DNA of 43,219 bases from Bacteroidota bacterium (GTDB taxonomy: Bacteria > Bacteroidota > Ignavibacteria > UBA10030 > UBA8401), in the NCBI GenBank assembly GCA_027622375.1, contig JAQCAB010000014.1, positions 1 to 43,219 of the forward strand, in the 5' to 3' direction. The notes below the pieces were generated by a model, which did not search any database, had not been told where the DNA came from, and saw nothing but the letters and a program-made list of their open reading frames with translations. Positions within the stretch are counted from its first letter, which is position 1. Each line of letters starts with the position of its first letter. The position numbers and the translations under genes are program-made. Shown here piece after piece: positions 38,649 through 40,485 of this stretch.

Positions 38649-38722
38649 GGCGGGGTAGCTCAGCTGGTTAGAGCGTCGGAATCATAATCCGCAGGTCGGC
38701 GGTTCAAATCCGCCTCCCGCTA
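38649..38722 (+). tRNA. tRNA-Met (CAU)
   Basis: The 74-base cloverleaf is complete: acceptor GGCGGGG with TCCCGCT, D arm GCTC..GAGC, anticodon loop ATCATAA with CAT, five-base variable loop AGGTC, and T arm GGCGG-TTCAAAT-CCGCC. The discriminator is A and no CCA is encoded. The elongator Met identity is likely, but an Ile-CAU reading (modified by TilS) cannot be fully excluded. The 3' part is duplicated at 40166, marking it as a likely integration target. Confidence 0.95.
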
Positions 38723-38757
38723 CTTTCATAACCCCTTGTAATTTAACTCGTTTAAAG
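38703..38757. repeat. Direct repeat, copy 1 (tRNA-Met 3' end and flank)
   Basis: Bases 38703-38757 match 40166-40220 at 52 of 55 positions; the mismatches are at 38735, 38751 and 38755. The repeat begins in the T-loop (TTCAAATCC) and runs about 35 bases beyond the tRNA. It is placed as the left attachment-like end of a ~1.46-kb segment. Confidence 0.9.
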
Positions 38758-38938
38758 TGGGTCAATCATTCGTTCACTTTGGGAACTCGCCAAAGAAAGA
38801 GAACAGCAAGCCGAACTCGGACAAAAGGAAACAAATGAAAACAATAATTTGCCTTATGTTTCAAGGAGAGAGTTTAGCAGACCGCAGAAAGCAGTTGTTA
38901 CTGGAAAGTTAGAAAATGTAATGTTACAATTAAAATGA
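38756..38938 (+). pseudogene. C-terminal remnant of an unrecognised gene
   Basis: Right after the repeat, a 60-codon frame opens behind a TAA and ends at TGA 38936-38938. It reads IIRSLWELAKEREQQAELG, then a Thr/Asn-rich linker and LPYVSRREFSRPQKAVVTG, ending LENVMLQLK. No start codon exists before the last few codons. It looks like a helical, charged C-terminal fragment of a longer protein cut by the insertion boundary. The composition is richer in GC than the neighbours. Family unknown. Confidence 0.4.
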
Positions 38939-38950
38939 TATAAAATTAAG

Positions 38951-39035
38951 ATGAAAAAACTAATATTTTCAAATCTCTTATGTTTTAAGCCTATTTAGTG
39001 TTAATTATGTATTTACATTATTTGACTACTATTAA
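38951..39035 (+). pseudogene. Frameshifted signal-peptide remnant
   Basis: ATG 38951 gives MKKLIFSNLLCF before a stop at 38996. Skipping one T in the run at 38983-38986 joins it to LSLFSVNYVFTLF, forming a normal signal-like peptide that ends at TAA 39033-39035. This suggests a decayed start of an exported protein. The evidence is modest. Confidence 0.3.
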
Positions 39036-39101
39036 TAATTGAAGTAAATTATAGATAAAAATTATTAGTAACCTGTAAATACTGTTTTAAAATATAACAC
39101 T

Positions 39102-39107
39102 AGGAGG
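39102..39107 (+). promoter_or_regulatory. Ribosome-binding site that sets a TTG start
   Basis: AGGAGG lies five bases before TTG 39113, a strong Shine-Dalgarno in a genome where these are rare. An overlapping ATG at 39108 is in another frame and closes soon, so the TTG is the likely start. Confidence 0.6.
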
Positions 39108-39112
39108 ATGTT

Positions 39113-39805
39113 TTGTGGTTTAAGCTTCAAATAAAGTTTATAGCTTTTCTTCTTTGTATACTCTTTATACCACTCAATTTATTAGCTCAATCAAATGTTG
39201 TAAAAGATGTAGATTTTGTAGTTGAAAATTCTATGTTGAATATTACTTATAAACTTACACCTGAAACACCCAGCTCTCAATATTTAGTTACAACTCAAAT
39301 ATCCTTAGATAATGGTATCAATTATTTTAAGCCTAAAAATTTATTTGGTGATGTTGGAAAAGTTTCCACTTTTGGAATTAAAAATATTTATTGGGATGTA
39401 TTTAAAGATATCGAAGAGATTGATAATAAATTTTGTAATTGGTTAAGTAAAAAAACAGGAAGAGTAATAAGATTACCTGAAGAAGATGAATGGGAATTTG
39501 CAGCAAGAGGTGGAAAGAAAAGTAAAAGATATTATTATAGTGGAAGCGATGAACTTGATGAAGTAGGATGGTATAATGGTAACTCTGGAGGTAAAACTCA
39601 CGAGGTAAGAAAGAAAAAACCAAATGAACTTGGAATTTATGATATGAGTGGAAATGTATGGGAGTGGGCAGGAACAAAGGGATATATTCGTGGCGGTTCT
39701 TGGGGCAACGATAGTAATAGTTGTTCAGTTTCTCGCGGATCAATAGCTATCCCGAGGGCCCGTAGCAACTATATCGGTTTTCGTGTTCTGCAGAATTCCA
39801 GGTAA
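39113..39805 (+). CDS. Secreted formylglycine-enzyme/lectin-fold protein, middle part missing
   Basis: The 230-residue product has a signal peptide (FIAFLLCILFIPLNLLAQ), an N-terminal beta domain seen in exported FGE-family proteins (about residues 28-95), and then jumps straight into the second half of a FGE-sulfatase domain: KFCNWLSKKTGRVIRLPEEDEWEFAARGG (given here in parts: NWLSKKTGRV, RLPEEDEWEFAARGG), DMSGNVWEW and RGGSWGNDSNSCS. The usual first half of the domain, with a GGxFxMG start and a YEVT-type motif, is absent between about residues 100 and 107, so an in-frame deletion is inferred. The C-terminus (RGGSW, S-R repeats, NYIGFRVLQ) resembles target proteins of diversity-generating retroelements. 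Probably a non-enzymatic, ligand-binding or decayed protein; stop at 39803-39805. Confidence 0.75.
   Translation: MWFKLQIKFIAFLLCILFIPLNLLAQSNVVKDVDFVVENSMLNITYKLTPETPSSQYLVTTQISLDNGINYFKPKNLFGDVGKVSTFGIKNIYWDVFKDIEEIDNKFCNWLSKKTGRVIRLPEEDEWEFAARGGKKSKRYYYSGSDELDEVGWYNGNSGGKTHEVRKKKPNELGIYDMSGNVWEWAGTKGYIRGGSWGNDSNSCSVSRGSIAIPRARSNYIGFRVLQNSR
39689..39789 (+). other. Variable-region-like 3' end of the FGE-type gene
   Basis: These bases encode RGGSWGNDSNSCSVSR, then GSIAIPRARSNYIGFRVLQ. Spacing RGGSW...C.VS.R...P..R.....GFRV matches variable regions of retroelement-diversified lectin-fold proteins, in which Asn-type AAY codons of a template are scattered into GCC, AGC, ATC and GAT. Such codons occur here (AAC, GAT, AGT, AAT, ATC, GCC, AGC). 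No template repeat or reverse transcriptase lies in the window, so this is inferred from resemblance only. Confidence 0.45.
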
Positions 39806-39885
39806 CAGACTTCGATTAACTTAGTGTATCACTTTGCACATTTACTCTTTTACTCTTTGCAAATTTTTTTTAACATCACTCGTTT

Positions 39886-39908
39886 ATCCTCGACAAGCTC
39901 AAGGTGAG
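39886..39908. repeat. GAGCTTGTCGA-type intergenic palindrome
   Basis: The stretch tcctcgacaagctcaaggt, on the minus strand CCTTGAGCTTGTCGAGG, has the GAGCTTGTCGA core that recurs between genes in many bacteria. A single degenerate unit is seen. It may be part of the mobile segment. Confidence 0.4.
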
Positions 39909-39977
39909 AATAAAAAAGAACTTTCAAACAAAGAAAGATGATGTTTGTTAAGTAAGATTTAAAAATAGATATATACT

Positions 39978-40008
39978 AAAAGGTCGGGAAAATATTCCGA
40001 CCTTTTTT
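39978..40008. terminator. Rho-independent terminator, bidirectional
   Basis: AAAAGGTCGG (39978-39987) and CCGACCTTTTTT (39997-40008) form a six-base GC-rich stem extended by A-T pairs, with a 9-base loop and a T-run on the plus strand and an A-run that serves as T-run on the minus strand. It lies 173 bases after the FGE-like gene and before the tRNA-Ser part. Confidence 0.8.
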
Positions 40009-40094
40009 ATTTCAACTAAATTTAGAGAACACAATTCGAGAACAATTATACCATTTTCATTTAACATCATATTTTTATATTTTAAGAAAACTTC

Positions 40095-40185
40095 GGAGAG
40101 ATGGGTGAGTGGTTGAAACCAGCGGTTTGCTAAACCGCCGTACAACCTTAAAGTTATGCCGAAGTTTCAAATCCGCCTCCCGCTA
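40095..40185 (+). pseudogene. Chimeric tRNA: tRNA-Ser(GCU) 5' part joined to tRNA-Met 3' part
   Basis: From 40095 the acceptor 5' strand GGAGAGA, D arm GGT..ACC, anticodon arm GCGGT-TTGCTAA-ACCGC (GCT, Ser) and a long variable arm are those of tRNA-Ser. The 5' T-stem (GAAGT) and T-loop TTCAAAT follow, but the 3' half then is CCGCC and TCCCGCTA, identical to tRNA-Met. So neither the T stem (GAAGT against CCGCC) nor the acceptor stem (GGAGAGA against TCCCGCT) can pair. The molecule cannot fold as a working tRNA. The join is in the shared T-loop sequence, where many integrases cut. Confidence 0.85.
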
Positions 40186-40220
40186 CTTTCATAACCCTTT
40201 GTAATTTAACTCGCTTACAG
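40166..40220. repeat. Direct repeat, copy 2 (tRNA-Met 3' end and flank)
   Basis: This copy matches 38703-38757 at 52 of 55 bases, 1463 bases downstream. The three differences rule out a trivial copy of the same reads by the assembler. It marks the right end of the island. Confidence 0.9.
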
Positions 40221-40485
40221 ATATTTCTTGTTTTTAAGAAAGTTACTAAAATCTCAAGTGGTCATATAAGTGGGGACATATTATAGAGGAGATTTTGACT
40301 TTTAACAGCTAAATCCTCCCAATTGTAATACTATATATAGAATAACTAAGAATCTGATAAATTATAGCCTTCCAACTAACCAGAAATAAACAAGAATAAA
40401 CAATTTATTTTATATTACTTGTAGTAATGTAGCTTTTTAAGTTAAATAATCGAAATAAAACAAAAATTTTAAAGGATTAATAAAC
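40221..40485. other. Intergenic region without a gene
   Basis: Together with the preceding repeat this leaves ~300 bases without coding sign. A hairpin TTTCTT (40224-40229) with AAGAAA (40236-40241) lies at its start, and an aagtggggacatat stretch near 40269 recalls flanks of transposase genes, without further support. An aaagga ribosome-binding site just before 40486 belongs to the next gene. Confidence 0.4.

Follow-up and report, generated by a model that had tools for sequence, protein, structure and literature searches.

The window analysed here is the whole of one contig (C15; 43,219 bp) in the draft genome of a Bacteroidota bacterium (GenBank GCA_027622375.1), which amounts to 1.73 Mb in 48 contigs. 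It carries a tRNA-like sequence that begins as a tRNA-Ser(GCU) and ends as a tRNA-Met. An intact tRNA-Met gene stands upstream of it, and the 3' fragment of tRNA-Met within the hybrid lies 1463 bp downstream of the corresponding part of the intact gene, in the same orientation. The stretch between the two holds remnants of genes. The features are listed in Table 1.

Table 1 Features at the hybrid tRNA locus, in window coordinates
Feature	Position	Strand	Basis or remark
Intact tRNA-Met(CAU), source type of the hybrid's 3' part	38649..38723	+	ARAGORN; Rfam 63.9 bits; syntenic tRNA-Met in G001 (same genus)
55-bp direct repeat, first copy (from the T-loop through ~35 bp of flank behind the tRNA)	38703..38757	+	Repeat match; 44-bp core in profile search
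Internally deleted FGE-sulfatase/GldK-like gene remnant between the repeat copies	39113..39805	+	Pfam PF03781
T9SS-type C-terminal tail stub (...MMFVK stop)	39920..39955	+	Six-frame reading
Hairpin resembling an intrinsic terminator, 5' of the hybrid	39978..40006	+	Within the interval 38746-40166
Repeat unit A: hybrid tRNA with Ser flank (~77 bp, upstream) and Met flank	40018..40208	+	94 % identical copy at C16:509-699(-)
Hybrid tRNA-like sequence	40095-40185	+	Rfam tRNA 28.1 bits
tRNA-Ser(GCU) 5' part, acceptor to T-loop	40095..40174	+	Alignment with relatives' tRNA-Ser; Rfam
Exchange tract TTCAAATCC, shared by Ser and Met	40166..40174	+	Alignment; relatives' tRNA-Ser sequences
44-bp Met 3' core, the hybrid's copy	40166..40209	+	Exactly five copies in the genome
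Core and right side X	40166..40339	+	Also C9:7626-7805, 87 % identity, with another left side
tRNA-Met 3' acceptor strand and ~35 bp downstream flank (copy)	40175..40220	+	Sequence match

A preliminary description had read this sequence as a tRNA-Ser(GCU)/tRNA-Met hybrid that switches in the T-loop and ends in the Met 3' end and about 35 flanking bases, diverged at three positions, and the comparisons made here bear this out. The tRNA model of Rfam matched across the junction, the Ser part aligned with the intact tRNA-Ser(GCU) genes of relatives at 77-84 % identity, and 52 of the 55 bases at 40166-40220 were the same as at 38703-38757 (95 %, three differences; E ~2e-18 for the Met-type match of the 3' part in the genome search). 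The base just 5' of the exchange tract is T in the hybrid, while it is G both in tRNA-Met and in the relatives' tRNA-Ser. Limits of 40095-40220 had been proposed, which are correct, but the unit repeated in the genome starts further upstream and covers 40018-40208.

The hybrid is a poor, defective tRNA. Its Rfam score is just below the family cut-off of 29 bits, and ARAGORN called no tRNA gene at 40095-40185. The anticodon is GCT, the anticodon stem is perfect and the D and anticodon arms are intact; the variable arm is long and imperfect. A functional tRNA-Ser(GCU) needs paired acceptor and T stems, and here two of five pairs are left in the T-stem and five of seven in the acceptor, one of them G-U. 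The earlier statement that both stems no longer pair thus holds for the T-stem but overstates the loss in the acceptor. A functional tRNA, or a tRNA-like RNA acting as a decoy or regulator, is extremely improbable, even though two arms are intact, a promoter-like TATATTTT lies upstream and the assembly has no other tRNA-Ser(GCU). Besides the broken stems, the second copy of the hybrid (on contig C16, see below) has decayed further and lost anticodon-stem pairs, and the decoy suggested at first is not borne out.

The search of the assembly for an intact tRNA-Ser(GCU) or a displaced Ser 3' end, which had been recommended as a check, found neither. The cell must have this tRNA, since 26 % of the serine codons in the window's genes are AGT or AGC. 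As tRNA-Ile(GAU) is likewise absent from the tRNA list of the assembly, the missing tRNA-Ser(GCU) is most simply due to incomplete assembly, which explains it better than a functional hybrid does. In G001 the tRNA-Ser(GCU) is found at the overlapping ends of two contigs; its acceptor contains a single mismatch, and 132 nt past the gene lies a second Ser-type 3' end. Two further genomes hold a decayed tandem tRNA-Ser (G054) and a tandem tRNA-Ser fragment whose T-loop contains an inserted hairpin (G043). These anomalies indicate that the 3' half of the tRNA-Ser(GCU) gene has been affected repeatedly in the order. Small hairpins (CTCCGAAGGAGCGCCTTCGGCGG; TCCCGAAGGGTTCCTTTCGGGA; TCCCGACAGAGTCGGGA) occur in or near the T-loop of tRNA-Ser fragments at L065:1590-1800 (G043) and L048:300-370 (G001). 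Apart from the serine genes, the promoter and 5' half of another tRNA with a CAT anticodon enter unrelated DNA at the end of contig C13 (L082/L127, C13:48250-48316), and the 3' part of a tRNA of the same type opens contig C27 (L081:3-55); this is possibly another tRNA split at the anticodon.

The same Ser/Met junction was found on C16, with 94 % identity over 191 bp. The match takes in about 77 bp before the Ser part and ends 20-odd bp past the tRNA; the sequence after it is unrelated. The copy bears directly on whether the assembly joined two tRNA loci by mistake, which the preliminary description had named as the case that would refute it. The genome is a draft in 48 contigs and the contigs of the relative break at tRNA-Ser, but a junction that is 6 % diverged and has different downstream sequence on another contig cannot come from one misjoin. 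An artefact is therefore very unlikely, and we give it hardly any weight.

The first copy of the repeat belongs to an intact tRNA-Met gene. In G001 the sequence upstream of tRNA-Met is syntenic and the interval is absent, but the sequence downstream is unrelated, so the comparison with relatives that had been proposed yields no clean unoccupied site. Right side X, compared with G001 as a possible native flank of tRNA-Met, showed no similarity above that of shuffled sequences. Within the interval, the match of the FGE-sulfatase/GldK-like remnant to PF03781 covers profile positions 103-254 of 255 only, i.e. the last 60 % of the domain. No similarity to integrases was found within 38746-40166, and a family search with the short reading frame at about 38768-38937 gave no convincing match. 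Tails similar to the T9SS stub occur on contigs C40 and C37 and in G001. As separate observations, the internal deletion leaves the reading frame of the FGE-sulfatase/GldK-like gene open, and a near-palindromic element, TTATCCTCGACAAGCTCAAGGTGAGAATAA, lies at 39886-39916, just upstream of the tail stub.

The copies of the core are those of the intact tRNA-Met, the hybrid, C16, C9:7626 and C28:501 (minus strand), the fragment on C28 covering 501-532. A profile search of the genome for degenerate further copies found none beyond these five. The fragments on C9 and C28 each consist of half a tRNA-Met that starts near the anticodon, behind a terminator-like hairpin. The left side is the Ser 5' part (A) in the window and on C16, and the half tRNA-Met (B) on C9 and C28; in B the retained Met 3' half begins at the anticodon, in A at the T-loop. 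The right side is X in the window and on C9, and another sequence, Y, on C16 and C28. All four combinations (A-X, A-Y, B-X and B-Y) thus occur, and exchange at the core must therefore have happened repeatedly. Within the core, positions 24-25 track the left side and position 36 onward largely tracks the right side, while the variable position 33 matches neither flank; with four sequences, this pattern of bases following the flanks is suggestive only. Behind all four fragments an open reading frame begins in the same orientation, roughly 70-360 bp from the core. Interruption of the nuo operon by the C9 fragment was considered and rejected, as nuoI and nuoJ are apart in G001 too.

The hybrid is a defective member of a mosaic family and most likely an old scar of tRNA-directed integration; for the more exact reading as a decayed, attachment-site-like remnant of such an integration we see about an even chance. 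A DNA element whose attachment core is a tRNA-Met 3' end would have recombined in the T-loop with a sequence holding the tRNA-Ser(GCU) 5' part and its promoter region, giving the product Ser(5')-TTCAAATCC-Met(3')-flank. On this view, 38746-40166 and the broken genes in it would represent the remains of an inserted segment, bounded by the regenerated tRNA-Met on one side and its displaced 3' fragment on the other. At this core, related junctions on C16, C9 and C28 would have traded their left and right flanks, with crossovers in the T-loop for A and near the anticodon for B, and the junctions would later have decayed and been copied. The exchanges were presumably made by a site-specific tyrosine recombinase, probably in this order of events and with no activity at present.

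Integration is the best reading because of the layout, in which tRNA-Met, a remnant and a 3' Met fragment follow each other, and because the fragments start in the T-loop and at the anticodon. The same junction on C16, the exactly five cores, the four combinations and the gene remnants in the interval add to this, as do the anomalies at tRNA-Ser 3' ends in G001, G043 and G054. The T-loop stretch is common to most tRNA genes. The switch point as such, which had been offered as a sign of an integrase, is weak evidence and not diagnostic, since many tRNA genes have such a 9-bp match in the T-loop. The case is weakened by the interval, which has no integrase and is below the 2-kb minimum of Islander, and by the lack of a displaced Ser 3' end. 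The genome's complete integrases are a XerD-like, a XerC-like, a weak XerC/D-like protein of 295 aa and one of integron type, and neither tRNA-Met nor tRNA-Ser was seen beside them. Searches of viral contigs, phages and plasmids with the core and the hybrid gave only ordinary tRNA-Ser genes or short matches of tRNA length, and the core was not found in other public genomes; the lack of a mobile-element record with the core, and core position 33 following neither flank, weaken the case further.

A serious rival, although we regard it as rather unlikely, is recombination between tRNA-Ser and tRNA-Met through the shared T-loop (9-11 bp), with no dedicated recombinase, after which the product of about 190 bp was copied elsewhere and decayed. 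The switch sits in a stretch common to both genes, and the Ser upstream flank travels along, as it would in ordinary DNA copying. The genus has been rearranged at these loci, synteny with G001 being lost at several of them, and relatives in the order hold tandem, decaying tRNA-Ser copies. Such recombination alone, however, leaves the four Met 3' fragments and the four combinations around a 44-bp core unexplained.

It is also conceivable, at a markedly lower probability, that the Met 3' fragments were dispersed within integron gene cassettes; an integrase R-box (on the minus strand, AAGCGAG|TTAAAT or AAACGAG|TTAAAT) would then form the right-hand edge of the core. The genome has an integron-type integrase at C37:2378-3178 (L133) with an attI-like site (20.4 bits). 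This integrase scores under the NCBIfam cut-off for TIGR02249. Its family is widespread in Bacteroidota, and in most members TATAWRNNAG|TTR lies about 110 bp past the gene. Contig C28 opens with the tail of another such integrase (C28:61-102) and an attI (23.4 bits), and its Met fragment is flanked by this attI and by another attI-like site (C28:668, 21.1 bits), about 490 bp past the first (integron region L008:61-190 and 660-680). This one fragment thus sits directly behind an attI, which makes an integron role possible. When 86,404 positions were scored for the attI motif, the right-hand edges of both cores in the window came 6th and 11th, matching on the minus strand, but they were scored after the motif had been noticed elsewhere, which makes this a lead and not a result. 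Their scores (7.1 and 6.3 bits) are weak compared with the strong sites beside the C28 copy; every training site scores higher (12.6 or more), and so do some unrelated background hits. Next to the copies in the window, on C9 and on C16 no attC was demonstrated, and the T-loop switch is left unexplained. Elsewhere, an attC-looking sequence, ATAACGGTTTGCAGC...CAAACCGCTGTTACAAGC, was seen in G001 (L154:2405-2560) behind a glycoside-hydrolase-like gene, the counterpart of which on C28 is about 1 kb from the integron site.

We consider it quite unlikely, more so than the cassette origin, that the tRNA-Met 3' end and its flank form a shuffling joint, a 44-bp tRNA-derived core through which an integrase of the genome, possibly of integron type, swaps promoter-side and gene-side segments between loci, in a tRNA-based cassette system with hybrid tRNAs as by-products. 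If the core were such an active joint, it would connect tRNA-directed integration with cassette shuffling; as it stands, the locus is a well documented scar. The five cores in one small genome offer a compact set for following flank exchange around a tRNA end.

Several known systems resemble the locus in part. The same genome has integrases and attI-like sites of the chromosomal integrons of Bacteroidota, and one Met fragment adjoins such a site, whereas the hybrid of the window has no demonstrated attC or integrase alongside. In tRNA-integrated genomic islands an intact tRNA is followed by a displaced 3' fragment in the same orientation, with a minimum interval of 2 kb in Islander (PMC4383910). 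The window shows this arrangement (38649-38723 and 40166-40185), but its interval of 1463 bp is short of the 2-200 kb of Islander, lacks an integrase (38746-40166) and ends in a fragment attached to a different tRNA's 5' part. Integrases that target tRNA genes have two classes of crossover site, the T-loop and the anticodon, and similarity in the T-loop lets related tRNA genes act as targets (PMC1762012). Mycobacteriophage Ms6 integrates into tRNA-Ala as a T-loop (class II) case, with the exchange proposed to take place inside the 7-bp T-loop (PMC1762012). The T-loop exchange is alike, but that of Ms6 stays within tRNA-Ala genes, while the window has a broken product made from two different tRNAs; it records that exchange in the T-loop can join two different tRNA species, and not only a tRNA and its own element-borne copy. 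In Rickettsia peacockii a chimeric tRNA gene lies at a tra-cluster junction, at one end of a rearranged mobile cluster (PMC2791219). The chimeric tRNA is comparable, but the cluster is identifiable there and only gene remnants are left here. The feature is known in kind, and what is unusual about it is the fusion of Ser and Met and the occurrence of all four combinations around one core.
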